A DNA stretch of 64,000 nucleotides, taken from assembly GCF_964036645.1 (NCBI RefSeq), contig NZ_OZ038525.1, positions 868,001 through 932,000 of the forward strand, read 5' to 3'. Of the stretch, positions 9,946 to 64,000 are shown piece after piece (the stretch's first letter is position 1; each line of letters begins with the position of its first letter). The stretch is from Tenacibaculum sp. 190524A02b (GTDB lineage: Bacteria > Bacteroidota > Bacteroidia > Flavobacteriales > Flavobacteriaceae). The notes below the pieces were generated by a model. It was not told where the DNA came from. It made no database searches and saw nothing but the letters and a program-made list of their open reading frames with translations. A program made the position numbers and the translations under genes.

Positions 9946-9971
9946 GTACAGGTAACTTTCAAACTACCCTA
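9946..9971 (-). promoter_or_regulatory. Predicted ECF-sigma promoter, site A (fecR-receptor)
   Basis: Read on the minus strand: TAGGGTA (9971-9965), 12 bp (GTTTGAAAGTTA), CCTGTAC (9952-9946). It lies between the sigma stop and the fecR ATG, 49 bp before the latter. The same two boxes with the same 12-bp spacing occur upstream of four other genes in this window, plus one weak match. Assigning the boxes as -35 and -10 elements of the neighbouring ECF sigma factor is inference. Confidence 0.75.
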
Positions 9972-9972
9972 T

Positions 9973-10494
9973 TTAAAATTTTAAATGCATTCCTAAAGTC
10001 TTACGTAAATTAATAAAAGCATTGCTCATTCTACGTTCAACACCTTTTACTGAGATACCTGTAATTTCGGCAATTTCTTTATAACTCTTTTTATCAATTC
10101 TACTTAATAAAAATACCTCACGCTCTTTGTCAGATAAATTAGCAATAGCACTTTCTAACTTATTTTTAAATTCTTCAGTTTCCAATATAAAATCAGGTGA
10201 TTCATGGTTTCGATCACTTTTTGGAATAGCTTCATGTTTTAATACCACTTTTTGATGTTCAAATTCATTACGTAAAGCATTATTACAAATAGTATATAAA
10301 AACGCACGTGCAGTATCATAAATAACCTCTGCACAACGCTTCCAAATTTTTACAAAGGCATCCTGTACAATATCTTCTGCCTGTTGCAAATTACCACACT
10401 TGTAGTAAATATAATTTGTAGCCGTTTTATAATACGACTGAAATAAGGCATCAAAATTTTTCTCTTCACAAACAGATTTACTTGACTTATGCAT
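9973..10494 (-). CDS. ECF-family RNA polymerase sigma factor (FecI-like)
   Basis: This 173-aa protein has the two regions of group IV sigma factors. Sigma-2 includes NLQQAEDIVQDAFVKIWKRC (about residues 35-54) and the following promoter-melting segment. Sigma-4 is LSDKEREVFLLSRIDKKSYK plus the HTH EIAEITGISVKGVERRMSNA (about 120-162). Length fits Bacteroidota FecI-like factors (about 170-195). It heads the sigma-fecR-receptor cassette. Its own upstream region has an ordinary TAGCTTTG -7 element (10514-10521) and not the TAGGGTA-N12-CCTGTAC motif, so it is probably made by the housekeeping sigma and released by signalling. Confidence 0.95.
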   Translation of the reverse strand: MHKSSKSVCEEKNFDALFQSYYKTATNYIYYKCGNLQQAEDIVQDAFVKIWKRCAEVIYDTARAFLYTICNNALRNEFEHQKVVLKHEAIPKSDRNHESPDFILETEEFKNKLESAIANLSDKEREVFLLSRIDKKSYKEIAEITGISVKGVERRMSNAFINLRKTLGMHLKF

Positions 10495-10513
10495 ATAGAA
10501 AATATTTCGAAAA

Positions 10514-10521
10514 CAAAGCTA
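10514..10521 (-). promoter_or_regulatory. Housekeeping -7 element (TAnnTTTG) for the sigma gene
   Basis: TAGCTTTG on the minus strand, 19 bp upstream of the sigma factor ATG, matches the Bacteroidota -7 consensus TAnnTTTG. No clear TTG -33 box is seen at the usual distance. The rest of the 344-bp divergent gap 10495-10838 is A/T-rich and holds no other feature apart from the element at 10799. Confidence 0.5.
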
Positions 10522-10798
10522 TTAAAAATTAAGAGATAAAATTAACAGATTTAAATACTAGCTATTCTAAAATACAAAATAAAATAATAACTATTACAAT
10601 AAAAAATGAGCTATTAAAAATGAGGAATTGTATCAAAACAATAATCAACTGTCTATACAATTAAGGGGTTATGATTAAACTCTAGATAGAATAATAGTTA
10701 TTCTTAATAATAAGATATACAAAAGAGTAGGGGATTGCTTAACTTTATTGTATAGTATAATGTATAGATTGTTAATCACCATAAAACCATTAATAATC

Positions 10799-10806
10799 TA
10801 ACTTTG
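10799..10806 (+). promoter_or_regulatory. Housekeeping -7 element for the TPR-HTH regulator
   Basis: TAACTTTG fits TAnnTTTG and lies 32 bp upstream of the ATG at 10839. The -33 TTG is not at an optimal distance. Confidence 0.45.
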
Positions 10807-10838
10807 TTATAAAATTAATCATTTAGTATCACCATAAA

Positions 10839-12467
10839 ATGCACTCAAAAAAGAACTATTTATACCTATTACTTTTTTATGTAATTACTAGTTTTAGTCA
10901 AGAAAATAAAAAAGACTCAGTAGTAATTCGATTAAAACATAATATAGAAACAGCAGTTTCAAATGCTGTAAAAGTGAATGCATACATTGAGTTAGGAAAT
11001 GCTTATTTAACAAATGATATTTTTCAAGCAGAAGAAGCTTACCAAAAAGCAATAAACATATTAAAAACAAACCCTAACATATTAAAAAAACAAAGAGCAA
11101 ATGTTTATGGACAATTAGGTGTTTTGTATAAACGTAAAGGAGAGTATCCTTTAGCTATGGAATACTATTTAAAATCGAAAGAATTTTTTGAAGAAATAAA
11201 AGATACAACCAATATAGCTAACTTGATACATAATATAGCTATGGTATACAGAGATCAAAGAGAACATAAAAGAGCTATTAAAAGTTTTCAAAAAGTAATT
11301 GCTATAAAACATAAATTAAAAGAAAGTGTAGGAGAAGGAATAGCTTATAATATGATGGGAGTATCTTACCGAAAATTAAAACAATTAGATTCCGCTATCA
11401 TATGCTATGAAAAAGCTAAAAACATTTTTAATAAAGCAAATGATTTAGAAAACCTCCAAAGAGTAAATTCCAACTTAGCAGCATTGTATCATTATCAAAA
11501 AAAATACAATCAATCCATACAATTACATCAAACCAATATCAAGTATTATAAAGAAAAGAAAAAATTAAATTCATTATTTAATAGCCACTTTAACATTGCT
11601 AAAACATTTGCAGTACAAAAACAATATAATCAAGCAATAGAGCATGTAAATCAAGCTTTAAATATAGCAGAAAAACTAAAATTAAAAGACAAATTATCAA
11701 GAGCCTATTTAAGAAGAAGTTGGATTCATTCAAAAAGAAATAAATACAAAGAAGCCCTAGAAGACCATAGAAAACATAAAAAATACTCAGATTCTATTTA
11801 TAATAGATCTAACGTTAAAAAAATACAAGAGTTAGAATTAACACATAAATTTAAAAAGCAAAAATTAACAGACAGTCTTCAATACGAAGCAGAAAAGAAA
11901 AATTTAGAGTTAATAAAAGATAAAGAACAAACAAAAAGAAAGCTCTATTTTTCTCTATTTATTAGTGCAATGTTATTAGGAATTTTAGTAAATATTTGGA
12001 TTAAAAGTAAGTATAAGAAAAAGAATAAAATTATAGTTGAAGACTTTAAAAAGAAAGAAGAAGAGCTAAAAGCATTTACGAATGAATTATTGAATAAAAT
12101 AAACAAGCAAGAAAAACAATTAAAGAAAAGAAAAGAAGAGAAAGAAGAAACTAGTAAAACAAAGAAATTACATATAAAGGTAGCAGAGAAGATATTGACA
12201 AAAGAAGATTGGTACAACTTTAAAGAAAAGTTTAATCAAGTATATCCCATGTTTTTTAAAAGTATAAAAGAAAAAGGAATTCATTTAACAAGTTCAGAAG
12301 AGCGCTTGGTGACACTTGAAAAACTTGGTTTAGATAATAACCAAATAGCAAAGGTGTTGGGGATTTCAGTAGACAGTGTTTTTGTGAATCGTTATAGATT
12401 AAGAAAAAAAATCAACGCCCCTAAATCCATCTCAATATTACAGTTCTTAGAAGAACTAAAATCCTAA
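10839..12467 (+). CDS. Membrane-anchored TPR protein with C-terminal LuxR-like HTH
   Basis: This 542-aa protein has a signal peptide (ending TSFSQ, about residue 20). About seven tetratricopeptide repeats follow (for example AYQKAINILK, SFQKVIAIKHK, AIEHVNQALNIAEKLKLKDK) over residues 40-310. Next come one transmembrane helix (LFISAMLLGILVNIWI, about 371-387), a charged coiled coil (390-450), and a C-terminal HTH (LGLDNNQIAKVLGISVDSVF, about 498-525). The TPR part should be periplasmic and the HTH cytoplasmic, a one-component membrane regulator layout common in Bacteroidota. It is divergent from the ECF sigma gene and immediately precedes the 2271-aa T9SS protein, so it may tune the same surface genes; that is inference from position. 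No kinase or receiver domain is present. Confidence 0.85.
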   Translation: MHSKKNYLYLLLFYVITSFSQENKKDSVVIRLKHNIETAVSNAVKVNAYIELGNAYLTNDIFQAEEAYQKAINILKTNPNILKKQRANVYGQLGVLYKRKGEYPLAMEYYLKSKEFFEEIKDTTNIANLIHNIAMVYRDQREHKRAIKSFQKVIAIKHKLKESVGEGIAYNMMGVSYRKLKQLDSAIICYEKAKNIFNKANDLENLQRVNSNLAALYHYQKKYNQSIQLHQTNIKYYKEKKKLNSLFNSHFNIAKTFAVQKQYNQAIEHVNQALNIAEKLKLKDKLSRAYLRRSWIHSKRNKYKEALEDHRKHKKYSDSIYNRSNVKKIQELELTHKFKKQKLTDSLQYEAEKKNLELIKDKEQTKRKLYFSLFISAMLLGILVNIWIKSKYKKKNKIIVEDFKKKEEELKAFTNELLNKINKQEKQLKKRKEEKEETSKTKKLHIKVAEKILTKEDWYNFKEKFNQVYPMFFKSIKEKGIHLTSSEERLVTLEKLGLDNNQIAKVLGISVDSVFVNRYRLRKKINAPKSISILQFLEELKS

Positions 12468-12567
12468 TCTCTTTATTTATAGTTGTTTTTTGCACTTGTA
12501 TAACGTTTTCTATAGGTGTAAAATAAAAGGGTAAAGTTATCTATAGATAGTTTTGTGAAAATAAAAA

Positions 12568-12593
12568 TAGGGTAATTAAAAGTGAACCTGTAC
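12568..12593 (+). promoter_or_regulatory. Predicted ECF-sigma promoter, site B (2271-aa T9SS protein)
   Basis: TAGGGTA (12568-12574), 12-bp spacer ATTAAAAGTGAA, CCTGTAC (12587-12593), 76 bp before the ATG at 12670. Both boxes are identical to site A and the spacing is the same. It lies in the 202-bp gap after the TPR regulator, which holds nothing else recognisable. Confidence 0.75.
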
Positions 12594-12669
12594 CCTATAA
12601 GAAGAGCATAATTAAAAGCTCTAAAACAAGATAAAGCAAAATTATGATAGTTAACTTAAAGAACCTCTT

Positions 12670-15600
12670 ATGAAAAAAAATACTATAATTTATTTTATGA
12701 TATTATTGTGTTTGTTAACAACACAATCATTTGCACAAACCTTTACAGAAGTAGAGAATAATAACAATGTAACAAATACATTAGGATCTTCTCAAAGTAG
12801 AATTTATAGTGCAGCCAACTTTACAGGAACAGTTACTTCATCAGATTCTGATTTTTGGATCATTTCAAGAAAATCTATTCAATCAACCGATCTAATTCTT
12901 TATTTCGATCGACTATGGGTAAATAGCAACCCTGATTTTGATTTTAGAGTTTGGGAATATCGCGGAGGAAACTGGGGAGTTACACCAGTTAACATTGGTA
13001 CGCTTAGAACTTTAATGCAATCATCAGGTATTTACGATTACAGTTTAACTTTACCTTACAGTAATAATGTAAGTGGAGGAAATAGTAATAATTATTATGC
13101 TATTGAAGTAATCACAGGAGCGGCTAGTTACAATTATAATTTTCAATTAAAAGCGAATTCATTTAACTCAGTTTATTATTGTTATGAGTTTAATTTAAGT
13201 GAACCAACAGTATTGCAAGTAAATGATACTGATGTGGCATTAGCCGATATTGGAGTTAGTACATTCGAAGATCGCTATTATATTGTTAAGTTTTCAGCAA
13301 CAGATTCATTTACTGATTTTACAGATGGCTATATTCAAAATCAAGCTTTACCAACAGCAGCAGGAAGTAATACTTATAGTGGATCCGGTGAGCACATTGC
13401 TTATGTGGGTACTGACAATGGAGCTGTGCAATCAGCAATGACAATGACGAACTTACTTCGCAATTCAACATATTATTATAAAGTTTATTCCTATAGTGAT
13501 TGTCAAGGTTATATTAACTATAATAATACAATTGCTTCAGTCCCTATTACAACGTGTTCTGGAACTGCTCCTAATGTAGGTTCTGTAAATTCGGTTACGC
13601 CAACATCAACAACTAGTACTACAATTAATACTTTAGGTAGACCATCGGGAGCTGATGAGTATACAGGGTATTTAGTGAAGTTTAGTGATACAAATAGTTT
13701 TACGGCACCAGTTTCAGGTACTACAGTCCCAACAGCTTCTACTGATTATTCAAGTAGTACAGGAGAACAAGTAATATATACAGGAGCGGTAGGAAATGAT
13801 GCAGGAACAACAGATGATATAAATCAGGAGATAACTGGTTTACAAATTAATAAAGAATATTATGTAAAGGTGTATACCTATAATTTTTGTGGAGGAAAGT
13901 ATAATTTTGAAACAACAGGTTCGTCTGTTGTAATTTCAAACTATATATGTGAAGCACCATCAGCAGCTACTAATATTCAGGCAGCAGTAGGGGGAACAGA
14001 TAGGTTAACAATAAATTCTTTTACTGAACCTTTAAATAATTCACAAGGGAGTTTAGGATATGTAATAAAAATTAGTGATACAAATACATTTACTGCACCT
14101 ACAGTTGTACCAACTTCTTCAAGTACAGTTTATAATTCTGCAACAGGTGGTGATCAAGTAGTTTATGTAGGAAATTCAATTACACCTAACTTAACAATTA
14201 CAGGTTTAACTCAAAATACAACCTATTCAATAAAAGTATATTCTTATAGCACTTGTGCTGGATCAGAATATTTTGAAACTACGGGAAGTGCATTAGCCGA
14301 GGTTATCACTTGTGGTACTCCTCCAGGGAATTCTCAATTAGGAGCATTCAGAGAAGATTTAAATTGGGAAAATAGAGTTTCACCAATTATTACTAATGTT
14401 CCTAGTGGAATTACTGGACATGTTGTTAAAATGAATATCCAAAATTCATTTACTGATATTACAGGAACATTAAGCACGTTACCAACTGCAAATACCAATT
14501 ATTCAGGTTCAGGAGAACAGGTGATTTTAGCAGGGAATACAGGAGAAGGGCATGCTTTTACAGGTCATAATTTATTACCAAATACAGAGTATTTCTTTAA
14601 AATATATTCTTACCAAGAGTGTAATGGACAATTTTATTTTTCTGATACAAGTGCTTCAACATCTAGATTTACATCAGGAGTTACAAATAATTTGGCATCA
14701 AATGCAGTAATTAATAATTTAACAGGAACAACTTTTACTTTAGATTCTTTTACAGCTGCAGCAACAGCTAGTAATGGGCAAGGAACTCCAACAGGGTATA
14801 TTGTGAAAATGAATACTGTAAATAGTTTCTCTTCATATTCGTTTAGAGCAAATATTGCAAACCAATCTGGAAATCCTAATTACTTAGGAGGAGAGCAAGT
14901 TATGTATATTGGAACTTCTGTAAATCCGAATCTTGAAATAACTGGATTAACCCCTGGAACAACCTATTACTTTACTATTATTGGATATCGCGATCATGGA
15001 TCTCCGTATCATTTTTTAAGTTACCAACCAACAGGATATGAGTTTTCTATTGTAAATAATGCATCTTTGGTTAATCCTACAATTACTTTTAACGATATAA
15101 TGGTAAATGCAGGTGATGCAAACTTTAATTTAAATGCTACTTCAAATTCTAGTGGAGCCATAACTTATAGAATTATTGATGACGGTGGTTCTGGAACAAC
15201 TTTAAGTGGTACAAATAACGAAACTGTTACTATTGGTTCTGCTGGTATGGTAGTAATTGAAGCAACTCAAGCGTCTACAGCAACATATCAAAGTGCTACT
15301 AAAACAATGACCTTAACAGTAGAGGCTCCATTAGCAACCCTAGGTGGTGGAATTTTCTATCAAGTTAATTCAGGAGTAACAACTGTGGATATGACTCAAA
15401 ACATCAATTCAAATTCTACAGGTGCGTATACTTTTGAAATTATTGGTGATGATTTAGGGTATTCAGTAAGTGGAAACCTACTTAACGTAAATGATGTTAT
15501 AGGTTCTATTGTAGTAAAAGTTACGCAAGCTGCAGATGCCAATTACAGTGAAACAGTTGCATACTATTCTACTTTATTTTTTAACGTAGGATTTAGCCCA

Positions 15601-18600
15601 AAATCGGATTTAGCCCATAATTTATTTGACTTTTCATTAAACCCTGGAGAATCGTATACAATAATTACGACCATAAACTTTTCAGGCGTTCCAACAACAT
15701 ATAGTATAGTTGATAATGGAGGTACTGGCTCAACGTTAAATGGGAATGTATTTACTGCAGGAGGCGCAGGTACAGTAACGTTACGTGCTTCTTCAGCAGA
15801 CAACTCTTTATATAATGCTACAAATAAAGACGTAACAGTAACCATAAATGGTACTCCTCAAACGATTACATTTAACCCTTTAAGCGATGTTTCGTATGGT
15901 GATGCTAACTTTAATTTAACCGCTACTGCTTCTTCAGGGTTGGCGGTTTCATATGTAAGTTCAGATCCAACTGTAGCTTCTATTTCAGGAAGTACAGTAA
16001 CAATTCATAAAGAAGGAACAATCAATATTACGGCTTCTCAAGCTGGTGGTGGTTTATACAATCCTGCGGCAGATGTGATTCAGTCATTAACTGTGAATCC
16101 AATTACAATTGCAAATCAGAATGTAACGTTAGACACTACCGGTTCTGTTTTGTGTAATACTAGTGCAGTGGTTTCTATAGATGGTTCACAAACAAACATT
16201 AATTACTTCTTAAGAGACAATAGTGATAATTCAATTATTGAAGGACCATTGGCAGGAACTGGAAATGGTATTACGTTTGCTACTGAACAATTATCAAGTA
16301 ACAAAACATATAATGTAATAGCAGTACAGGACAATCAAACATTACCATCTGCTACAAATACATTACAAATGACAACTACACCTTCAGCTAGTGTACAGAC
16401 TTTAGATGTAAAGACTGTTGGTTTATCTCAACCAAACGGTCAATCCGCTGTAGTATCAGTTGAGAATTCTCAAACCGGTGTGGTTTATTATTTACAAGAT
16501 AATATAACTAATGAAGTTTTACAAGGCCCATTAATGGGAACTGGAGCAGATATGTCATTTGTAAGTGATGCTATAACAGCAGATAAAACGTATAAAGTAA
16601 TTGGTACAGATGCAAATGTAAACAATGGTGTAAGAAATGGAATTAGTTTAGATAATGTGGATGATTATATTAGTATTCCTGCAATTAATTCTCATTTAAC
16701 AAATGTAGGACAGGCAACCATTGAAACTTGGGTGAAAATTCCAGCTGTAGATGCTACTGATGTAAATGCCTCAATCATTACATCTGAAGGGTATGCAGGT
16801 GTTTTCGGAGCTACAATTGTACCTTTTTATATCAATATTTCTGGAGGGCAAATTTTTGCAGGAAATCATAACGCGGATCCTGATGATGGAGGTACGTTGA
16901 ACACACCAGGTTATACGTATCCTGTAGATACATGGTTTCATGTAGCTGCTACAATGAATGGAGCAAAAATTAATTTTTATGTAAATGGAAACTTAATTGG
17001 AGAAAACGGTCTTAATTTTTCATTTGACTCATATGTACTTACTTCTAATTTACGTATAGGAAGAAATCATGAAGCCACATCTAATAGTTCAAAGTTATTT
17101 GGAGGACAATTAGCTCAAACTAGAATTTGGAATGGAATTCGTACACAAAGTGAAATTTCATCTAATATGAATACTGAGTTTACTACTCCACAAACAAGTT
17201 TAGTTTTAAATTATAATTACAACCAAACTTCTGGAGCAAGTGTTACAGATGAGTCTGGTAACTCAAATACAGGAACTTTACAAAATGCAGCAGGAGATGC
17301 TACAAATTGGGTAAAAGATTTATTTACGGATAGTCTTTGTGGTTTTGTAAATATGAACAATACAGTTACAGCTACTTATGTGTCATTACAAGATCAAATA
17401 ATTACATTTAATAGTTTAAGTGATGTAACTTATGGAGATGCAGATTTAGATTTAACAGCAACATCTGATTCAGGTTTAGCTGTTACCTATGTCAGTTCAG
17501 ATACTAATGTAGCTATTATTTCAGGTAATACAGTTACTATAGTTGGAGCAGGTACTACAACTATTACAGCCAGCCAAGCAGGAGATGCAACCTATGATGC
17601 AGCTTCAGATGTACAACAAGAATTAACGGTAACTACAAGAGCTATTGAAGTAACTGCAAATGCAAAGAATAAGGTTGAAGGAGGAACAGATCCAACATTA
17701 ACCTACCAAATTACTTCAGGAAGTTTAGTCAATGGAGATACGTTTACAGGAACTTTATCTAGAACTTCAGGAGAAACTTTTGGAGATTACCCTATTTCTC
17801 AAGGAACATTGGCATTAACGGCTAATTATGCCATTACTTTTGTTGGAAACACATTTACGATTAACAGAGATGTATTAGCAAGATGGGATGGTAGTACAAG
17901 TTCTGCTTGGAATGTAGTAACAAACTTTGAAGGCGATGTTTCACCATTAGCTACAGATAATTATGTAATTCCTAATGTAGCAACAACCCCAAATATAACT
18001 TCAGGAATAGTTGCACAAATGAATAGTTTAACGGTAGAAGCATCGTCTACACTAACAATTTCAGGAGACGGAGCAGCAGTTATTGAGACTAACTTTGACA
18101 ATAGTGGTTCGGTGCTGATTACTTCAAACGCTAGTTCAAGTGGAGCAATGGTTGTAAAAGGAACAGCCAACGGAATTGTTACTTATGAACGCGGTGGTTT
18201 ATTAGCCAATAAATGGAGTATAGTTACTGCACCAGTTGTAGGTCAGAGTATTAAGGGGTTTGCTGAAAATGCAGCTAATGATATTCGAAGAAATACAAGT
18301 GTTACACCCAATAGAATAGCTATTGGATACTATGATGATAGTAAGCCAGCAGGTTCAAAATGGACGTACTATACTACAGATGATATTGTAACAGATGCGT
18401 TAACTTTTGAGAAAGGTCAAAGTTATATTATATCACGAGCTACAGACGGAGCAGTAACCTTTACAGGAACATTAGAAACAGCTAATGTAGCAAAAGCAGT
18501 TGCAGCCTCACAGTGGAATGCAGTAGGAAACCCTTACACAGCTTATTTTCCAGCTAATGGTAACGCAGGAGATAACTTTATTCAAGATAATTTATCAAAG

Positions 18601-19485: not shown

Positions 19486-19494
19486 TAAAGAAAC

Positions 19495-19654
19495 ATGAAT
19501 AACAAGCAGCGAAATAGTCAAACGGAGATGACAAGAAAAGAGGCTTTGAAAAAAATAGGAAACTATGGTAAATATACTGCGTTAACTGCTTTAGAAATGT
19601 ATGTGTTATAAAGCACAAGCACAAAGCCCCGAAGCTCCGGGAGAAGGATTTTAA
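19495..19654 (+). pseudogene. Frameshifted copy of the 58-aa exported-peptide gene
   Basis: From ATG 19495 the frame reads RKEALKKIGNYGKYTALTAL exactly as in the gene at 24172, then diverges and stops at 19609-19611 after 38 codons. The conserved end KAQAQSPEAPGEGF is present but in the +1 frame (19610-19654, ending TAA). The alignment is explained by an 11-bp loss in the middle relative to the intact gene. The copy starts 9 bp after the stop of the 2271-aa T9SS protein and so would be cotranscribed with it. It is either a pseudogene or a truncated 38-aa variant; a sequencing error is possible but would have to be an indel. Confidence 0.75.
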
Positions 19655-19675
19655 ATAAAAGGATTTTTTTAATGT

Positions 19676-19710
19676 TGAGCCAAGATGTATTTATTCTTGG
19701 CTCATTTTTT
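19676..19710 (+). terminator. Intrinsic terminator after the 2271-aa gene and peptide remnant
   Basis: TGAGCCAAGA (19676-19685) pairs perfectly with TCTTGGCTCA (19695-19704) around a 9-nt loop and is followed by TTTTTT. It ends directly before promoter site C, cleanly separating two ECF-driven units. Confidence 0.9.
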
Positions 19711-19711
19711 A

Positions 19712-19737
19712 TAGGGTATTTCAAAAGTAACCTGTAC
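19712..19737 (+). promoter_or_regulatory. Predicted ECF-sigma promoter, site C (tail-fibre-like protein)
   Basis: TAGGGTA (19712-19718), 12-bp spacer TTTCAAAAGTAA, CCTGTAC (19731-19737), 23 bp before the ATG at 19761. It is an exact match to sites A and B in both boxes and shares the AAAGT core in the spacer. Confidence 0.75.
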
Positions 19738-19760
19738 AACAATTAGAAAAGATAATCATC

Positions 19761-21911
19761 ATGAATAAAATAAAAACATTAAGCTTTTTTATACTACTAT
19801 TGGTAACCATTCAAATTTTTGGACAATCGTTCAATTATCAAGGAGTTTTAAGAGATGCTAATGGTCAGGTTTTAAAAAATAAATTTGTAGGTATACAATT
19901 TAGAATATTACAAGGTAGTGCAACTGGAAGTAATGTATTTCAAGAAACCCATTCAGTAACTACTAACGAATATGGAGTAATTAATATTTCAGTAGGAACA
20001 GGAACCGTATTATCTGGTAACTTTTCAGTAATCAATTGGTCTACTCAAAATCATTGGTTAGAAGTAGCAGTAGATATTTCTGGAGGAACAACCTATACTG
20101 TTTTAGGAAGTTCAAAACTACAAGGAGTTCCGTATGCAAGTTATGCGGAAACTAGCGGAGATAAAGTATTTTCTACAACAAATAATATTACAAGTAATGC
20201 TAATGGCAGTATAGCTACAGATGATTTTGTATTTGGAAGTATGCAATTAGCAAGTAATAATAGTACAAATGATGATGATAGAAGGTTCTTTTTTGATAAA
20301 AGTAAAGGAGCTTTTAGAGCAGGAACATCTAATGATTCTTCATGGGATGAAGCAAATTTAGGAATAGGGTCTGCTGCTTTTGGATATCAAAATATAGTTA
20401 CTGATGGGTTCAATGGGTTTGCCGCAGGATCATCTTTAACAGTTAGAGCCTCAAATGGAGTTGCTTTTGGCGATCAGAATTTGGTAACAGGTAATTATGC
20501 CTTTGCACATGGAGAACATTTAACTTCAGAGACTAGAAGTCAAATTACATTAGGACATAATAATACTCCAGATTCTGGATCACAAGCAAATAGTAATACT
20601 TTAAGATATCCTGAAGATAGACTATTTGTGATAGGGAACGGAACATTCGATAATAAAAGTGATGCTTTGGTAATTCGTAAGAATGGAAATACAGCTATAA
20701 ATGGACAATTAACCATTGATGGAGATAATCAAGGAGCAGGAACTTCTTATACTTTACCAGCACAAGATGGAAGTGCGAGTCAAATCATGACCACAGACGG
20801 AGCAGGAAATGTTAGTTGGACAGATGTAGGTTCAAATGGAGCTTTTTCTACAACTACTAATGTAACAAGTAATAATTCTGGAAATATAGGAGCTGATGAC
20901 TTTGTATTTGGTAGTAATCAGTTAGCAAACAATGGAACAACTAATGATGATGACAATCGTATGTTTTTCGATAAAAGTAAAGCGGCTTTTCGTGTTGGGG
21001 TAACTCCTGATGATTTAGAAGAAGGAGAAACAGCAAACCAATGGAATGATACTAATGTTGGATTTGCATCTTTTGCTGCAGGTGTAGGGAGTATTGCCAG
21101 TGGAGATGAATCTATAGCGTTAGGACGATATCATACTGCTTCTGGAGATAATTCTGTTACAATTGGTTCAAGCAATAAAGCAACAGCATTAGGAACAATA
21201 GCAATTGGAGGGTCAAATGTAGCATCTGGAGTAGCTTCAATTGCAATTGGAGATAATGTTTCAACAAGTTCACGCTCTCAGATAACATTAGGTATTAATA
21301 ATGTACCAATTGCAGCTAGTAATCATATGTTTATAAGTACAGATCCTCTTTTAGTTATTGGTAATGGAACCTTGTCAACTCCAAGTAATGCTTTAGTAAT
21401 GTTAAAAAACGGAAACACTACTTTAAAGGGTTCATTAACTATTGATGGAGATAATCAAGGTTCAGGAGCTTCATATACCTTACCAATCCAAGATGGAGCT
21501 GCAAATCAAGTAATGATTACAGATGGTTCTGGAAATGCTAGTTGGACAAATATTCCTGCTCCTGTGGTAGAGGCATATACTGCAGTAACATTAAATACTG
21601 GTGGTGGATGGGAAAATTATAATACAGCTTTTAGTATAACTAGTTTTCAAGATCCTAGATATAGATTAAATGATAATGTTGTGTATTTAGAAGGAATGGT
21701 AAGAAAGAATGTTGCTATAAATAATGCAGATGTAATTATGACTTTGCCAGTAGGATTCAGACCGCAAAAAACTAGAGTTTTTTCTGTTCAAACTGAAAAT
21801 GGATCAATTCGAGTAGATGTTAATCCATCGGGAACAGTTGTAGTTGCTTCAGGCTTTAATGTGAGTCAAAATTGGGTTTCATTAGACGGTATTACGTTTA
21901 GTATTGATTAG
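19761..21911 (+). CDS. Secreted tail-fibre / YadA-head-like surface protein
   Basis: This 716-aa protein has a signal peptide (ending IQIFGQ, about residue 22) and a conserved N-terminal domain (SFNYQGVLRDANGQVLKNKF). Two ~215-residue tandem copies follow, starting near TTNNITSNANGSIATDDFVF and TTNVTSNNSGNIGADDFVFG. They contain YadA/Hep_Hag-like head repeats (SxAxGxxxxxS, for example GSNVASGVASIAIGDN) and end in ITIDGDNQG-type strands. A C-terminal knob (GGGWENYN, LEGMVRKN, LPVGFRPQ, WVSLDGITF) looks like a phage tail-fibre receptor-binding domain. No T9SS sorting domain is visible, so the export route beyond Sec is unclear. A trimeric fibre is inferred. It is driven by ECF site C. Confidence 0.85.
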   Translation: MNKIKTLSFFILLLVTIQIFGQSFNYQGVLRDANGQVLKNKFVGIQFRILQGSATGSNVFQETHSVTTNEYGVINISVGTGTVLSGNFSVINWSTQNHWLEVAVDISGGTTYTVLGSSKLQGVPYASYAETSGDKVFSTTNNITSNANGSIATDDFVFGSMQLASNNSTNDDDRRFFFDKSKGAFRAGTSNDSSWDEANLGIGSAAFGYQNIVTDGFNGFAAGSSLTVRASNGVAFGDQNLVTGNYAFAHGEHLTSETRSQITLGHNNTPDSGSQANSNTLRYPEDRLFVIGNGTFDNKSDALVIRKNGNTAINGQLTIDGDNQGAGTSYTLPAQDGSASQIMTTDGAGNVSWTDVGSNGAFSTTTNVTSNNSGNIGADDFVFGSNQLANNGTTNDDDNRMFFDKSKAAFRVGVTPDDLEEGETANQWNDTNVGFASFAAGVGSIASGDESIALGRYHTASGDNSVTIGSSNKATALGTIAIGGSNVASGVASIAIGDNVSTSSRSQITLGINNVPIAASNHMFISTDPLLVIGNGTLSTPSNALVMLKNGNTTLKGSLTIDGDNQGSGASYTLPIQDGAANQVMITDGSGNASWTNIPAPVVEAYTAVTLNTGGGWENYNTAFSITSFQDPRYRLNDNVVYLEGMVRKNVAINNADVIMTLPVGFRPQKTRVFSVQTENGSIRVDVNPSGTVVVASGFNVSQNWVSLDGITFSID

Positions 21912-22110
21912 TCTATAGTTGTAAGCATTAACAACTTTGTTAAAAAGATGTAGTATTCCAAGATACATAAAGCTTTTTTACTAAATGTTTATTATAGGGT
22001 ATTGAGAAGTTTTTTAAAGTGAAGCGTATGGTGTAGGGATGTTTTCGGAGTCGCTCTATGTTAAATATGATAGATGTTTTAAATGAGATATATACGAAAT
22101 AAATATTGTA

Positions 22111-22136
22111 CTGGGTAATCTATAAGTTACTTATAC
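22111..22136 (+). promoter_or_regulatory. Weak ECF-sigma promoter candidate, site F (612-aa T9SS protein)
   Basis: CTGGGTA (22111-22117), 12-bp spacer ATCTATAAGTTA, CTTATAC (22130-22136), 18 bp before the ATG at 22155. The spacing matches sites A-E but each box has two mismatches. It is accepted mainly because of the spacing, the position and the shared protein family. Confidence 0.4.
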
Positions 22137-22154
22137 TAAATTTTAAATAAAAAA

Positions 22155-23993
22155 ATGAAGATAAAACTAATTTATATAGCAGTTCTTTTGGGGTTTAATT
22201 GGTCATTAATTTCTCAAACAATAAGCAGCAGTGTAGTAGCTAGTGGTGGAAATACCATTACAAACGGAACTACGACTATGGATGTTACCATTGGAGAATT
22301 AGTAATTACTGATATTAATAATAGTGAAACTACCTTAAATCAAGGCTTTCAACAAACTACTGTTTATGATGTAAATACAGTTTCTTGGGATGGTAGCACC
22401 AATTCATTTTGGACAGAGATTACCAATTGGAGTACTAATTCAGTACCAGAAACACCCAATGATGTAGTAATACCCAATACACCAAATTCACCAATAATAA
22501 GTTCAGGGGTAACTGCTGAAATGAATGATTTGACAGTAGGAACTTCAGCTTCTTTTGATATTTCAGATAATGGAGCTGTACTAGTTAATGGAAATTTGGA
22601 AACTAATGAAACGATTAACATAGGGTCATCTACCAATACAAGCGGGACTTTAATAGTTAAAGGAAGAGCTAATGGAATGATTAGTTATGAACGAACTGGC
22701 TTATTAGCAAATAAATGGAGTATTATTACGGCACCAGTTTCAGGACAAAGTATTAAAGAGTTTATAGAGAATCCAGCCAACGGAATTCGAGTAAATCCAA
22801 CGGTAACCCCTAATCGTTATGCGGTAGCATATTATGATGATGCAAAAGCTACAGGTTCTAAATGGACGTATTACACAGCAGATGATATTCAAACTAATAC
22901 ATTAACCTTTGAAAAAGGGAAAGGGTATATTATATCAAGAGCAACGGATGGCAGTGTATATTTTACAGGAACTATTGAAACTACTGATGTATCCGTTGCA
23001 GTACAAGCGGGACAGTGGAATTCTTTAGGGAACCCCTATACCGCTTACATGCCAGTAAATAACAATGCAGGGGTAAACTTTATCCAAGAAAACATAAATA
23101 AGTTCAATCCAGCTAATGTAGGTGTATATATTTGGGATGTAAATCAAAATAAATACATACCACAAACCTTAGTAGGGAATCCAATTTCTCTAGCAGTAGG
23201 GCAAGGCTTTTTTATAAGAACAACAGAGGGAGTTTCAACTGTTAATTTTAAAGAAGCACAGCGTTTATCAGACGCTAGCAATGCAGGTGTATTTTCAAGG
23301 AAAAAAGTAACGGCAGGTATTCAAATAACAGCAAGTCAAGATGGTATTTCTGTTAATACACACATAAAATATCTACCAAAAGCCACAAATGGCTTAGACT
23401 CTGGTTATGATCTAGGTAACTTTGAAGGTGCTGAATTTGATATTTATACTCAATTAGTTTCTGGTGATTCTGAGGAACAGTTTACAATACAATCATTACC
23501 TAATACAAAAGAAGCAATGGTAATTCCGTTAGGAATTACTTCTAAAGCTAAAAAAGAAGTAACCATTACTGTGAGTACAGAAAACTTAGGAGATGGAATG
23601 GAAGTGTTTTTAGAAGACAATGTATTGCAAACAAAAACTAAATTAACAAACAATACTAAACACTCAATAGTATTTAATGAAGATGTAAAGGGAACCGGAC
23701 GTTTTTATTTACATGTTAAAGGAACAACACTAACAACTGATAATACTATAATTGCAAATAATACAGAAATGAAAGTATATACCGTTTCAAATAAAAATTT
23801 GATGGTAGAGGGAATACATGATGAAACATTTACACTAAGCATATACAATTCACTTGGAGGAAAAGTAGTTGATAAAAGTTTGGTAGGAAAAGGTAAGAAT
23901 TCAATTTTATTAAATGAATTAAGTACTGGAGTTTATGTTGTAAAAGTAACTTCTAAACAAAGAAGTCATAGTAAAAAAGTAATTATTAAATAA
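22155..23993 (+). CDS. T9SS type A sorting-domain surface protein (612 aa)
   Basis: After a signal peptide (ending SLISQ, about residue 21) there is a short region common in flavobacterial T9SS proteins (VVASGGNTIT ... TIGELVI ... LNQGFQQ). The ~450-residue module shared with the 2271- and 706-aa proteins follows: SWDGSTNSFWTEITNWS, ANKWSIITAPVSGQSIKEFI, GSKWTYYTADDIQ, WNSLGNPYTAY, VGVYIWD, GQGFFIRT, then a beta-sandwich with GYDLGNFEGAEFDIYTQL and GTGRFYLHV. The last ~75 residues are the T9SS sorting domain ending in a basic VIIK. Secretion and surface display are predicted; binding function is unknown. A weak ECF site lies directly upstream. Confidence 0.9.
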   Translation: MKIKLIYIAVLLGFNWSLISQTISSSVVASGGNTITNGTTTMDVTIGELVITDINNSETTLNQGFQQTTVYDVNTVSWDGSTNSFWTEITNWSTNSVPETPNDVVIPNTPNSPIISSGVTAEMNDLTVGTSASFDISDNGAVLVNGNLETNETINIGSSTNTSGTLIVKGRANGMISYERTGLLANKWSIITAPVSGQSIKEFIENPANGIRVNPTVTPNRYAVAYYDDAKATGSKWTYYTADDIQTNTLTFEKGKGYIISRATDGSVYFTGTIETTDVSVAVQAGQWNSLGNPYTAYMPVNNNAGVNFIQENINKFNPANVGVYIWDVNQNKYIPQTLVGNPISLAVGQGFFIRTTEGVSTVNFKEAQRLSDASNAGVFSRKKVTAGIQITASQDGISVNTHIKYLPKATNGLDSGYDLGNFEGAEFDIYTQLVSGDSEEQFTIQSLPNTKEAMVIPLGITSKAKKEVTITVSTENLGDGMEVFLEDNVLQTKTKLTNNTKHSIVFNEDVKGTGRFYLHVKGTTLTTDNTIIANNTEMKVYTVSNKNLMVEGIHDETFTLSIYNSLGGKVVDKSLVGKGKNSILLNELSTGVYVVKVTSKQRSHSKKVIIK

Positions 23994-24114
23994 ATTACCT
24001 AAAACTAATCTTACTGAGTATTACATTCTTTGAAGTAATGCTAAAAAATAAATTATTTATAAGGTTGATTATCATTGTGTTTATGGGCTGTTGTGATTTT
24101 TTTATAAAAAAAAA

Positions 24115-24140
24115 TAGGGTAATCAAATAGTTTCCTGTAC
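24115..24140 (+). promoter_or_regulatory. Predicted ECF-sigma promoter, site D (58-aa peptide)
   Basis: TAGGGTA (24115-24121), 12-bp spacer ATCAAATAGTTT, CCTGTAC (24134-24140), 31 bp before ATG 24172. It is an exact match in both boxes. The presence of this site argues that the short downstream gene is real. Confidence 0.75.
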
Positions 24141-24171
24141 TAACAGTATAAAGCCTAAATAAAAACTACAA

Positions 24172-24348
24172 ATGAATACAATAAAAGGTAACAACGTAAA
24201 TAAGAAAGAAATCTCAAGAAAAGAAGCGTTAAAAAAAATAGGAAACTATGGTAAATACACAGCATTAACAGCCTTAGGAACTTATTTATTATTAAACCCT
24301 AAAAAAGCGCAGGCACAAAGCCCTGAAGCACCAGGAGAAGGATTTTAG
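24172..24348 (+). CDS. Short exported-peptide precursor (58 aa), C-terminus SPEAPGEGF
   Basis: The 58-codon gene encodes a charged N-terminus with SRKEALKKIGNYGKY (from about residue 15), a hydrophobic stretch (TALTALGTYLLL, 30-41), then NPKKAQAQ and the tail SPEAPGEGF. The layout resembles a signal peptide with an AxA-like cleavage point (AQA, about residue 48) that would release a roughly 10-residue Pro/Gly/Glu-rich peptide; that is inference, and membrane retention with a short periplasmic tail is the alternative. It has its own ECF site D and its own terminator, so it is a monocistronic unit. A frameshifted homologue at 19495 preserves both the N-terminal core and the tail, which supports selection on both parts. 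I do not recognise a described family. Confidence 0.8.
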   Translation: MNTIKGNNVNKKEISRKEALKKIGNYGKYTALTALGTYLLLNPKKAQAQSPEAPGEGF

Positions 24349-24376
24349 AGCATATTTATAACCTATGCTATATAGT

Positions 24377-24418
24377 AGCACAAGTTGAACAAAAAGGGGG
24401 GATACTTGTGCTCTTTTT
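24377..24418 (+). terminator. Intrinsic terminator of the 58-aa peptide gene
   Basis: AGCACAAGT (24377-24385) pairs with ACTTGTGCT (24404-24412) across an 18-nt loop and is followed by CTTTTT, 28 bp after the peptide stop codon. Confidence 0.85.
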
Positions 24419-24484
24419 ACTAACGCTAATCCTTAAAAATAGAACGTGTATATAGAAAAGATAAGAGTATAAAATTTAGAAATT

Positions 24485-24492
24485 TAATTTTG
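24485..24492 (+). promoter_or_regulatory. Housekeeping -7 element for the 57-aa basic protein
   Basis: TAATTTTG fits TAnnTTTG and lies 41 bp upstream of ATG 24534. No -33 TTG is evident at the expected distance. Confidence 0.4.
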
Positions 24493-24533
24493 TTAGTAAG
24501 GAAAAAATGATATAATATTTAAATTTAAAGAGT

Positions 24534-24707
24534 ATGACGAAACTAAAGCTTCAAGGAAGAAAAAAATTCAGTGTAAGAAGAAAGAAGAAAAAGTTTTTAT
24601 TACTACCAATTATACATAAAGGAGAGTTTTATTGGTTAAAAAAAGTAAAATTAGAAAAAGCCTTTAATGGATACAAAATGATGATTATTGGAATAGAAAA
24701 CGCATAA
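24534..24707 (+). CDS. Small basic hypothetical protein (57 aa)
   Basis: The 57-codon gene is strongly basic in its first third (LKLQGRKKFSVRRKKKKFLL) and continues LPIIHKGEFYWLKKVKLEKA to GIENA. No signal peptide is seen. It has a -7 element upstream and a terminator hairpin 53 bp downstream, so it forms a complete transcription unit. No family is recognised; the charge suggests nucleic-acid or ribosome binding, but that is speculation. Confidence 0.55.
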   Translation: MTKLKLQGRKKFSVRRKKKKFLLLPIIHKGEFYWLKKVKLEKAFNGYKMMIIGIENA

Positions 24708-24760
24708 TAATTTAAAGTAATAAACTAAGAAAACTTATTGAAGGGATTTTTTAGTAAACA

Positions 24761-24794
24761 AAAAGAGAGTTCTATGGTGGTAGGCTCTCTTTTT
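24761..24794 (+). terminator. Terminator hairpin after the small basic protein
   Basis: AAAAGAGAG (24761-24769) pairs with CTCTCTTTT (24785-24793) and gives U-rich ends on both strands, so it may also serve the converging Roadblock-like operon. A second hairpin AGCCATG/CATGGCT follows at 24805-24826 without a long T-run. Confidence 0.75.
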
Positions 24795-24857
24795 ACTTTT
24801 CTATAGCCATGTATATTTTCATGGCTTTTAATATGAAGGTGAAATTTATTTTTCGAG

Positions 24858-25115
24858 TTAAAATACGTGGTCACCTTTAGCTTTAAACCTAAAAACATCT
24901 AAGGCATTATCGTATTTTTCTGAAAATAAAAAATCAGATACTGTATTTTTTAGGCTTTCTAAGATCGAATGTTCTTTATTACTAATATCATTGGTTACAG
25001 TAAATTCAACATTTCTAGAAACAAACACTTTAGTATATATATTCTGATAATCACTAATAAACTGTGTAAAGTCTTTGTCTAGTTTTCTATTATGAAAGGA
25101 TATTTTATAATACAC
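24858..25115 (-). CDS. Hypothetical protein (85 aa), last gene of the Roadblock-like operon
   Basis: The 85-aa product is soluble and mixed alpha/beta, with no signal peptide and no motif I can assign (segments ISFHNRKLDKDFTQFISDY and LFSEKYDNALDVFRF). Its start overlaps the end of the 124-aa Roadblock-like gene by 11 bp, so the two are translationally linked. Its constant association with Roadblock-like proteins cannot be judged from one genome. It could be a partner subunit. Confidence 0.75.
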   Translation of the reverse strand: MYYKISFHNRKLDKDFTQFISDYQNIYTKVFVSRNVEFTVTNDISNKEHSILESLKNTVSDFLFSEKYDNALDVFRFKAKGDHVF

Positions 25116-25479
25116 TGTTTAACTCTACTTTATATTTATTTAAAAGTGTTCGGGCAAGTGCTAGATTAGCATTTTCTCCATCAAGTGCCAGATAAACAAA
25201 ATACTCACCATTAGGTGCTATGTTTATAATATGCACTTGTGATTCCAATTTAAAATGGATGTCTATAAGGTTGTCATTTAAGCCCAAAGCAGCTATAGCT
25301 CTACGCTTGGCATTTATTATTTCTACATTATAAGCAGAAGCCAAAGCAGGATCAAAACTTTCACTTACTGAATGAGAAATTAATGCCTCACCAGTGCTCA
25401 TATCAGTAACACTAATACCAATGTATGCAGGAATATTCTCTTTTACATTTTTTACTAAATCGTCTAAAACTTGTTTCAT
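25105..25479 (-). CDS. Roadblock/LC7-like protein (124 aa)
   Basis: The length, the opening helix followed by YIGISVTDMSTGEALISHSV, the central helix NAKRRAIAALGL and the paired strands HIINIAPNGEYFVYLALDG before a final helix (ANLALARTLLNKYKVEL) match the Roadblock/LC7 fold. Bacterial members (MglB-like) form dimers that regulate small Ras-like GTPases or act as scaffolds. No GTPase gene lies in this window. It is the middle gene of three; the upstream gene ends 6 bp before it. The fold call is from pattern only. Confidence 0.65.
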   Translation of the reverse strand: MKQVLDDLVKNVKENIPAYIGISVTDMSTGEALISHSVSESFDPALASAYNVEIINAKRRAIAALGLNDNLIDIHFKLESQVHIINIAPNGEYFVYLALDGENANLALARTLLNKYKVELNSVL

Positions 25480-25485
25480 GTATAT

Positions 25486-25827
25486 TTAATTTGTGGTTAG
25501 TTCAGATTTCTTTTGTAACACCAGCTCTAAAAGTCGAACATTAATGTTTTTATCTGATACAAAACATAAAACACTACCCATATGTTTAATTAATAAGAAA
25601 AACATATCGGTACTTTTTAAAATAATTTCTTTTAGTTCAGAATTAATATAATTTTCAAAAAAATGATCGGACATATTAAAAATAGTACTTCCAAAAACAA
25701 TGGTTTCATTTTCAATATCTTTTAAAATTCCTGATTTAACAAAGGAGTCTATGATTTCACCTTTTTTATTAATAAGGTAAACAGCCTTCGAATTAGTTTC
25801 GTTAAGTAATTCTTGTAGTTCCAACAT
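25486..25827 (-). CDS. Roadblock/LC7-like protein (113 aa), first gene of the operon
   Basis: The 113-aa product begins with a helix (LELQELLNETN) and a strand pair typical of Roadblock proteins (KAVYLINKKGEIIDSFVKSG). A central helix (FGSTIFNMSDHFFENYI), a strand pair (STDMFFLLIKHMGSVLCFVS) and a last helix (NVRLLELVLQKKSEL) follow. It is therefore a second, diverged Roadblock/LC7-like protein directly upstream of the 124-aa one, suggesting a heterodimer. No signal peptide is present, so it is cytoplasmic. A TAACTTTG -7 element lies 19 bp upstream. Confidence 0.65.
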   Translation of the reverse strand: MLELQELLNETNSKAVYLINKKGEIIDSFVKSGILKDIENETIVFGSTIFNMSDHFFENYINSELKEIILKSTDMFFLLIKHMGSVLCFVSDKNINVRLLELVLQKKSELTTN

Positions 25828-25846
25828 TTTAGATTTCGGGGTTACT

Positions 25847-25854
25847 CAAAGTTA
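25847..25854 (-). promoter_or_regulatory. Housekeeping -7 element for the Roadblock-like operon
   Basis: TAACTTTG on the minus strand, 19 bp before the ATG at 25827, fits TAnnTTTG. There is no convincing -33 box. Confidence 0.45.
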
Positions 25855-25991
25855 ATAAATTCTATTCTAAAAAAAAATAATGAGGATAAATAAAATTTAA
25901 TAAAAACTGAAAGGATGTAGTTGCCTATTTAATAAAAAAAACTAGTTTTTGTTATGTAATATGTATATCTTGAGTATAGTTTCCATTCTAA

Positions 25992-26020
25992 TTGTTTTTA
26001 ATAATAACTATTTATATTTG
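25992..26020 (+). promoter_or_regulatory. Housekeeping promoter of the metallophosphoesterase gene
   Basis: TTG (25992-25994), 18-bp gap, TATATTTG (26013-26020), 25 bp before the ATG at 26046. Both elements and the spacing fit the Bacteroidota TTG-N17-23-TAnnTTTG consensus. This gene therefore appears not to belong to the ECF group although it lies inside the island. Confidence 0.6.
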
Positions 26021-26045
26021 AAACCTAACCAACCAAGCCCAACAT

Positions 26046-27173
26046 ATGAAAATCAATATTTTAATCCTAATGTTAGCGTTGAGTACTATAAGTTGTAGTA
26101 CAAGCAAAAAGAAAAAACCTAAAAAACTAAATAAGAAAGAGAAAATACTTAAAAAACAGGATTCTATTTTGTATAGCTTTGTTTTTTTAGGATGTAATAG
26201 GGTAGATAGACATCAAGTAGGCGATACTACAGCAACAAACGCTTCCACAGCTAATTTATCTGCAATGAAACGAATTTGGACTGAAGTATCTTCTTTAGAA
26301 AGAAAGCCTGATTTATTTTTCTTTTTAGGTGATATGGTATTAGCTGAATCAACTACAGAGAATTTAGAAAATCAATTAATAGCATGGAATGAGCTCTATA
26401 ATAATACAAAGTTTAGCCCAATAAGTAAGGCAGGAATAGAAATGGTGGCAATACCAGGTAACCATGAGATGTTATATTGGCATGATTATAATATACCTAA
26501 GCATGATGAATGGCCTTTAAAAGGAGCTACTCAAATTTGGATGAAGCATATGGCAAAGTATATGCCTCAAGATAGAGATTATATTAAAGGAAATGATAGT
26601 ATTAACAATCAAATGACATTTGCTTTTAAGCGTAAAAACATTGGTTTTGTATTGATGAACACAGATACGTATAATGCGCCTACTAAAGAGAACCCATACG
26701 GTTTAGAAGGACAAATACCTACGCAATGGATTATTGATAAAGTAACAGCTTATAAAAATAACCCAGCAATAGACCATGTTTTTGTTTTAGGCCATAAACC
26801 ATATTATGTAAGTGGTAAACCAGAAACAGGACATAAAGGTATTCCAGAAGGGCCAGTTTTATGGCCTAAGTTAAAAGAGAATAAAGTAGTTGCTATGTTA
26901 TCTGCTCATGTGCATGATTATCAACGCATGCAACCAGATAATAAAGGAACTTACCAAATTATTGCAGGGAATAGTGGAAGCCCTGGCGAAGCAACTTTTT
27001 TTGGGTATTCTAAAATTGATATTTTAGTATCTGGCAACGTAAAGTTAACAGCTATGGGCTATGATGTAGGAAATCCATATTACAAAGCAGTACCTAATAA
27101 TCCTTCAACTGTGAGAGATGAAACAATTTTATCATGGTCAGCGAATGCAAATCCTTATCAAAATAAAAAATAG
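26046..27173 (+). CDS. Lipoprotein calcineurin-like metallophosphoesterase
   Basis: This 375-aa protein has a lipoprotein signal (LALSTISC, Cys about residue 17) followed by a lysine-rich linker, so it is membrane anchored. Metallophosphoesterase motifs are FFLGDMVLAE (about 98-107, GD present but the second Asp of GDxxD absent), PGNHEM (about 138), VLGHKPYY (about 247) and SAHVHDYQR (about 287, AHxH for GHxH). At the place of the first DxH box the protein reads FVFLGCNRVDRHQ. The metal site may therefore differ from the canonical one; phosphatase activity is likely but unproven. Its TAG stop is part of the TAGGGTG box of site E. Confidence 0.88.
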   Translation: MKINILILMLALSTISCSTSKKKKPKKLNKKEKILKKQDSILYSFVFLGCNRVDRHQVGDTTATNASTANLSAMKRIWTEVSSLERKPDLFFFLGDMVLAESTTENLENQLIAWNELYNNTKFSPISKAGIEMVAIPGNHEMLYWHDYNIPKHDEWPLKGATQIWMKHMAKYMPQDRDYIKGNDSINNQMTFAFKRKNIGFVLMNTDTYNAPTKENPYGLEGQIPTQWIIDKVTAYKNNPAIDHVFVLGHKPYYVSGKPETGHKGIPEGPVLWPKLKENKVVAMLSAHVHDYQRMQPDNKGTYQIIAGNSGSPGEATFFGYSKIDILVSGNVKLTAMGYDVGNPYYKAVPNNPSTVRDETILSWSANANPYQNKK

Positions 27174-27196
27174 GGTGATTGTAATGATAACTGTAC
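27171..27196 (+). promoter_or_regulatory. Predicted ECF-sigma promoter, site E (706-aa T9SS protein)
   Basis: TAGGGTG (27171-27177), 12-bp spacer ATTGTAATGATA, ACTGTAC (27190-27196), 33 bp before ATG 27230. There is one mismatch in each box relative to TAGGGTA-N12-CCTGTAC and the spacing is identical. The box overlaps the stop codon of the upstream metallophosphoesterase gene. Confidence 0.65.
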
Positions 27197-63999: not shown

Positions 64000-64000
64000 T
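56671..64000. repeat. 171-bp near-identical tandem repeat array within the giant gene
   Basis: The landmark CATATGGAGTAGC... recurs every 171 bp (for example 57102, 57273, 57444), or at 177 bp where a 6-bp TGTATC insertion adds two codons, or at about 249 bp where a 78-bp half unit (with GCGGGCAG) is inserted. Copies differ almost only at scattered silent positions (for example CCCCCGTAACAGT versus CCCCTGTAACGGT), and the same variants reappear in distant copies. The array continues past the window edge. Confidence 0.95.

Follow-up and report, generated by a model that had tools for sequence, protein, structure and literature searches.

A candidate promoter motif of a FecI-type ECF sigma factor precedes adhesin and fibre genes in Tenacibaculum

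Modules of a TonB-dependent receptor, a FecR-type anti-sigma factor and an extracytoplasmic function (ECF) sigma factor are of a type known for nutrient uptake. The target promoters of FecR-linked ECF sigma factors in Bacteroidota are largely unknown; a promoter footprint that holds at many loci allows each such regulon to be tested in turn. The part of a 2013 comparative study available to us calls promoter prediction for these sigma factors challenging without start-site data (PMC3878776), and the corresponding part of a 2020 study states that a motif is known for none of the ECF sigma factors of Bacteroides thetaiotaomicron (PMC7366714). Here we describe a stretch of 64,000 nucleotides ('the window') from Tenacibaculum sp. 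190524A02b (contig NZ_OZ038525.1, positions 868,001 to 932,000), in which the motif TAGGGTA-N12-CCTGTAC recurs around the genes for an ECF sigma factor, a FecR protein and a TonB-dependent receptor. We consider it probable, at about 0.86, that the adjacent FecI-type sigma factor uses this motif as its promoter, and so drives the fecR-receptor pair, giant type IX adhesins, trimeric fibres and a small exported protein of 58 aa. The footprint points towards surface adhesion rather than feeding, and the controlled genes would be readable from sequence. Coordinates are those of the window unless the genome is named; related loci (L) and genomes (G) carry our working numbers.

The cluster resembles FecIRA in that the genes for the sigma factor, the FecR anti-sigma factor and the receptor, a candidate transducer, are direct neighbours in this order. 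The sigma factor (173 aa; 9973-10494, minus strand) exceeds the Pfam cutoffs for region 2 (Sigma70_r2, 41.3 versus 24 bits) and region 4 (Sigma70_r4_2, 56.3 versus 25.7 bits), as expected for an ECF protein; its nearest named relatives are from Tenacibaculum, with T. aiptasiae at 85% identity. FecR (8970-9896, minus strand) matches PF04773 at 78 bits (cutoff 24) and FecR_C at 27 bits, and the TonB-dependent receptor (6282-8960, minus strand) matches CarbopepD_reg_2 at 51.7 bits and Plug at 33.9 bits (cutoff 23.9), giving the anti-sigma factor and receptor expected of a FecIRA-like system. Unlike FecIRA, the candidate targets here are surface adhesins and fibres with no uptake system, and the STN domain of the receptor falls under its cutoff. 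We class the system as FecIRA-like cell-surface signalling whose predicted targets are surface adhesins and fibres in place of genes for nutrient uptake.

A second likeness is to the ECF pairs linked to polysaccharide utilization loci in Bacteroides, which likewise include an anti-sigma factor and an outer-membrane receptor, as far as the consulted part of PMC3878776 describes them: the best-scoring NCBIfam model for the sigma factor is TIGR02985 (Sig70_bacteroi1), at 122.7 bits just under the cutoff of 126.4. The receptor differs, however, in having no NCBIfam family match at E 0.01 and so does not qualify as SusC. It is followed by genes for a GNAT acetyltransferase and a DUF2834 protein, neither of them SusD, so that the SusC/SusD arrangement is absent. 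For B. thetaiotaomicron, non-canonical -30/-10 promoters with TGTT near the -10 of two have been proposed for SigW-1 and SigH-1; these belong to other ECF groups, their motif was not significant in that study's search, and the portion of the article available does not mention TAGGGTA (PMC12596196). Links between ECF control and type IX secretion are described for Porphyromonas gingivalis SigP and the SM6 promoters of Flavobacterium psychrophilum (PMC4800418, PMC7712824, PMC9723704), where, in the sections available, secretion machinery is concerned, with PorXY input or a CGT box; in the window it is cargo and fibres, together with FecR and a receptor. The three-protein switch, a TGTT near the -10 linked to B. 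thetaiotaomicron ECF sigma factors and ECF control of type IX machinery are already known. A literature search covering few subscription journals gave, among the matches listed, no description of the motif or of a FecR-linked sigma factor driving fibres and type IX adhesins; TAGGGTA together with 'sigma factor' led, among the matches listed, only to Clostridioides difficile.

The genome (5,036,910 bases, one contig) holds exactly four copies of TAGGGTA-N12-CCTGTAC, sites A to D, all inside 14.2 kb around the cluster and all intergenic. Base composition predicts 0.0136 copies in the whole genome (Poisson P for at least four, 1.4e-9). Site A (9946-9971, minus strand) starts 2 bases past the sigma stop codon and 49 bp before fecR; lying between these genes, it gives the fecR-receptor pair an ECF-type promoter of its own. 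On the plus strand, site B (12568-12593) stands 76 bp before the gene for a 2271-aa adhesin, site C (19712-19737) 23 bp before a fibre gene and site D (24115-24140) 31 bp before a 58-aa gene, homologues of which follow exact sites in L361 and L369. Two further plus-strand sites are degenerate. Site E (27171-27196), TAGGGTG-N12-ACTGTAC, has one mismatch per box, retains the TGTAC core, fits the wider consensus and lies 33 bp before a 706-aa gene. Site F (22111-22136), CTGGGTA-N12-CTTATAC, has two mismatches per box and lies 18 bp before a 612-aa gene; we rejected it as a member of the class as it lacks the TGT core, with CTTATAC in place of CCTGTAC.

The boxes and 12-bp spacers of A to D, the mismatches in E and F and the distances of 18-76 bp to start codons are as the original prediction gave them. 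Its six-site regulon survives for A to E and loses F, and AAAGT or AAAAGT, said to occur in four spacers, is found in three (A, B and C). The genome has no copies with one mismatch and 24 with two; 28 matches with at most two mismatches compare with 12 for the pattern read backwards. Nineteen of the 24 two-mismatch copies are inside reading frames, those outside being E and genome positions 363904, 610664, 611280 and 1512225, of which 610664 and 611280 are the sites before and behind a paralogous sigma gene. In the window alone, eight matches with at most three mismatches against 3.27 expected have a sizeable probability of arising by chance; the signal rests in the exact copies.

A different element, TAnnTTTG, described as the sigma-A box of flavobacteria in the part of PMC9723704 available, is found 27-49 bp before the sigma, metallophosphoesterase, 25827 (minus strand), 57-aa and TPR-LuxR genes, whereas none of the six genes that follow sites A to F has it within the preceding 120 bp, which agrees with the proposal that nearby genes with other roles carry this element instead. 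The sigma gene itself has it 27 bp before its start, where an ECF site is absent. The two elements are mutually exclusive except at the TPR-LuxR gene, which carries both: a weak candidate site (10728-10753, plus strand; TAGGGGA-N12-ATTGTAT) lies 85 bp before it, and this gene is a possible further target. This weak site, an A-tract before TAGGGTA and a preference for TTA at the spacer end go beyond the earlier description.

The same box recurs behind related sigma genes. Using tblastn on fetched loci we collected 190 non-redundant sigma relatives, of which the 175 with at least 36% identity were counted and the 15 below left out (a first count had left out those under 38%). Scoring TAGGGTA with six or seven of seven letters plus (T/G)GT at a fixed spacing (N14) behind the sigma stop codon, we found the box in 133 of the 175 loci, with exact TAGGGTA in 111 of the 133. 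The spacing is sharply defined: 104 of 113 copies with exact TAGGGTA have TGT at offset 14, while every other offset from 4 to 25 has at most four, and for TAGGGTA (at most one mismatch) with TGTA in the window and 21 loci of its clade, offset 14 occurs 71 times and the other offsets from 8 to 20 between five and 14 times. The extended promoter, compiled from 69 non-redundant exact sites that are followed by a gene, shows an A-tract before TAGGGTA (80-94% A at positions -5 to -1), a spacer ending in TTA (84, 81 and 70%), C before TGT (97%) and TA after the -10 box (68 and 77%).

Motif and sigma factor also occur together across genomes. Searching for exact TAGGGTA-N13-CTGTAY in 16 of the 18 genomes with a window-clade sigma factor (L048 and L049 left out) gave 58 matches against two for the reversed control, with at least one match in 14 of the 16 genomes; fecR sites account for 12 of the 58. 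By our count, 43 of the 58 share a contig with the sigma gene (in the closed window genome we scored as such just the four copies at the locus), and in G759 all seven matches fall within 32 kb. In G750, nine of the 10 sites are on contigs other than that of the sigma gene, so the regulon is not always local. Among 97 genomes of the genus, a sigma factor of at least 85% identity is present only in G000 and G088, which have five and one matches; the next best identities are 57-58%, and the remaining 95 genomes, lacking a close orthologue, have three matches in all against two for the control. Nor did we find the outcome named beforehand as fatal to the idea, a motif scattered without relation to promoters: besides the 43 matches on the sigma contig, 31 of 35 examined sites precede an ATG-initiated frame of at least 45 aa within 170 bp, the exceptions being in L367, L377 and L378 and, within a reading frame of the window's own genome, in L379.

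Which base follows TGT tracks the sigma clade, at fecR sites and at distal (non-fecR) sites alike. We compared the window clade (sigma factors of at least 67% identity, from Tenacibaculum and Aquimarina) with a paralogue clade (53-59% identity, mostly Aquimarina and two Flavicella), requiring exact TGT, which left out four fecR sites with GGT, and removing duplicates by flanking sequence. At fecR sites the base is A in 18 of 18 window-clade cases and T in 16 of 16 of the paralogue clade, and all 29 distal exact-box sites of the window clade have A. For distal sites with at most one mismatch and a gene behind, the window clade has 40 A and 3 T and the paralogue clade 2 A, 11 T and 1 C (Fisher's test on A/T, 1.7e-7, with shared descent ignored). 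The paralogue-clade distal sites all have one mismatch, and those without a gene behind have 2 G and 1 T.

This separation bears on the best-surviving alternative, that these are genuine ECF promoters which paralogous sigma factors read as well, so that no private regulon exists. We give it roughly one chance in ten. TAGGGTA is common to the related sigma factors; a paralogue in the same genome (610770-611279) has TAGGGTA-N12-CCTGTTA before its fecR, two bases different in the second box; a minority of distal sites carry the other clade's base; and overlap between ECF regulons is discussed as possible for F. psychrophilum in the accessible part of PMC9723704. Sharing of this kind is, however, hard to square with a base that separates by clade, or with genus genomes that have only more distant sigma factors and mostly lack the TGTA motif.

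Less probable still is that the motif is a binding site for the neighbouring TPR-LuxR protein or another activator rather than a sigma promoter. In the window the TPR-LuxR gene adjoins the cluster, and 18 of 21 window-clade loci have a relative of it; yet a tblastn search (E 1e-4) gave none in L058-L076. Of these 19 loci, 18 carry the box behind the sigma stop codon with no more than a single mismatch in TAGGGTA, which makes this protein an unlikely reader. A relative was not found in the L042 locus either, although that genome has four exact motif copies. The boxes lack dyad symmetry and stand in place of TAnnTTTG, and the base after TGT follows the sigma clade, all of which speaks against an activator site. 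Very improbable is a third alternative, that the motif copies were merely carried along in upstream DNA when surface-protein genes were duplicated: the related C-terminal parts (by eye) in the products of 12670, 22155 and 27230 and the row of fibre genes in L361 speak for duplication, but the exact copies precede unrelated genes (fecR, adhesin, fibre and 58-aa protein) with unlike spacers, and identical boxes recur before the same kinds of gene in other genomes.

Several observations nevertheless weigh against an ECF promoter dedicated to the adjacent sigma factor. The box is missing, as scored, in 42 of the 175 related sigma loci; in several of these fecR starts immediately, and in several, variants can be made out by eye (GGGTAGGAAA...TGTT, TTGGGTA...CGTT), which we did not count as support. 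G748 and G751 have no exact motif despite having the sigma factor, with only variants in their loci. The one-mismatch distal class of the window clade comprises 24 A, 9 T and 2 C overall, of which the 9 T and 2 C go the wrong way. On a tree of 133 sigma factors the base after TGT changes at least seven times, too few for a paired test. The STN domain of the receptor scores 16.4 bits at residues 49-97 against a cutoff of 28.4. Finally, a two-residue recognition code was not convincing on held-out loci, as set out below.

Published ECF structures, in the parts available, show a specificity loop of region 2 reading a base in the corresponding part of the -10 element (PMC6372665, PMC6411747). Across the 133 loci, residue 69 (window numbering) shares 0.773 of 1.183 bits with the base after TGT, residue 22 shares 0.763 and residue 53 shares 0.732. 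Residue 69 sits three before a conserved Asn, as I85 does before N88 in Mycobacterium tuberculosis SigH (by our reading of an alignment in which Asn 72 of the query meets an Asn of SigE); both SigH residues contact the -10 element in the section of PMC6411747 available. A residue rule was fixed ahead of a held-out test of 30 rows, five of them already-known sigma factors and 25 new, four of these without a box. It fitted 15 loci and misfitted six (15/21), against 13/21 for a constant guess of T, and independent-pair tests were not significant, with too few changes. We do not claim a recognition code.

The original interpretation is largely right: the proposal that the adjacent ECF sigma factor reads the motif gains comparative support from the box at fixed spacing behind sigma stop codons, the clade-linked base and the co-occurrence of motif and sigma factor (58 matches in 16 genomes versus three in 95). 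Motif, spacing, place, clade-linked base, co-occurrence and target classes are read from sequence; transcription by the sigma factor, the signal and the role in adhesion we infer, as follows. TAGGGTA would act as the -35 box and (C)CTGTA(C/T) as the -10 box, at fixed spacing. At rest, inner-membrane FecR would control the sigma factor, and a ligand at the TonB-dependent receptor would signal through FecR to yield active sigma, both steps being modelled on FecIRA systems as outlined in abstracts. Polymerase with active sigma would then transcribe the fecR-receptor pair, giant type IX adhesins, trimeric fibres and the small exported protein. Because the sigma gene appears to be under a housekeeping promoter, feedback would run through the inhibitor and the sensor. 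Related sigma factors retain the -35 box, and the clade-specific base after TGT would help to separate paralogous systems. More tentatively, and with the odds somewhat against it, the module may sense contact or a ligand and deploy a varying repertoire of giant type IX adhesins and mosaic trimeric fibres along with a small exported protein, with one -35 word and single -10 base changes allowing parallel modules per cell whose targets are readable from sequence.

The genes behind sites in relatives fall into recurrent kinds: fecR, giant surface proteins, fibres, the small exported protein and DsbH-like thioredoxins (L365 and L376; below the curated cutoff). All five giant surface proteins scanned have a type IX sorting domain, with Ig-like, FG-GAP, HYR, MBG or laminin-G domains. 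Ten fibre proteins share, by our own count, one N-terminus type, and L361 (6007-19049) has four consecutive fibre genes, each with its own exact site and with weak matches to trimeric autotransporter adhesins, which looks like an expanding fibre cassette. The small exported protein follows sites in three lineages (window, L369 and L361). TPR proteins are encoded 38-43 bp past sites in L037, L039 and L041, and 154-164 bp past sites in L053, L055 and L057.

In plan the fibres resemble the mosaic adhesive trimers of Bdellovibrio, in which, according to the part of PMC10769870 available, 21 of 21 proteins have a conserved domain directly behind the signal peptide. A similar domain behind a signal peptide, a repeat-built fibre and, in L054, a C-terminal Peptidase_S74 recur here. 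The match of nine fibres scanned with the Bdellovibrio N-terminal domain (NF053851) differs in staying at 24.3-35.6 bits against a cutoff of 60 (35.6 for the window fibre, 24.3-35.4 for eight related fibres), which makes them members by plan only. The window fibre itself (716 aa; 19761-21911, plus strand) is trimeric-fibre-like, with YadA_head at 21.4 bits, below cutoff, besides Bdello_MAT_N at 35.6.

The TPR-LuxR gene and the three cargo genes of the window are on the plus strand. The TPR protein with a LuxR-type C-terminus (10839-12467) matches TPR_12 at 106 bits and GerE at 21.8 bits (cutoff 23.5). Three products pass the TIGR04183 C-terminal sorting domain cutoff of 23 bits and are type IX cargo: the giant surface protein of 2271 aa (12670-19485; Laminin_G_3, MBG_2, fn3; 24.2 bits), the 612-aa protein (22155-23993; 35.5 bits) and the 706-aa protein (27230-29350; 31.7 bits). 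Only the second, at most a possible member of the regulon, passes the Pfam counterpart (cutoff 27); the 120 bp that precede its gene contain no TAnnTTTG and no TAGGG-N16-TGT. The 'Roadblock' label once given to gene 25105-25479 found no Pfam support at E 0.01.

The 58-aa protein behind site D (24172-24348, plus strand) looks by eye like a signal peptide that is followed, after AQA, by a tail of roughly 10 residues, and has no Pfam or NCBIfam match. We considered, but do not propose, this tail as a ligand of the receptor. Its family is large, with 2012 relatives at E 1e-3, copies in 84 of the 97 genus genomes and 15 in the window's own genome; the signal-like part is near-constant and the tail reads like (Q/A)SPEAPGEGF. 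Of the own-genome copies seen with their neighbours, eight of nine lie on the same strand 3-33 bp behind a large gene ending, by eye, like type IX cargo (the neighbour of the ninth, L290, was masked), and by this reading the protein is a conserved partner of type IX cargo. We rejected the family as a regulon marker, as only the window's own among 25 copies shown has a site; in L361 and L369, however, homologues are preceded by a site. A basic 57-aa protein (24534-24707), without Pfam or NCBIfam match, has the housekeeping element in the window, and homologues elsewhere (L040:9661-9828; L042:9679-9846) stand behind one-mismatch ECF sites.

Elsewhere in the genome, nine TAGGGT-N14-CTGTT sites (L381-L389; none in the reversed control) have a gene behind in seven cases, including the fecR of the paralogue and several genes whose products begin like lipoproteins or with signal-peptide-like stretches, and form a candidate regulon of the sigma factor 610770-611279, dispersed over the genome. 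A third sigma relative (C1:4539405-4539830) has an internal TAG and lies beside a FecR gene (4538737-4539009); it is probably a decayed system. At the far end of the window, 56068-64000 is richer in G+C (0.38-0.39) and on each strand shows frames of 54-56 aa and 80-82 aa in a ladder, from which we read it as a putative long repeat-built gene.

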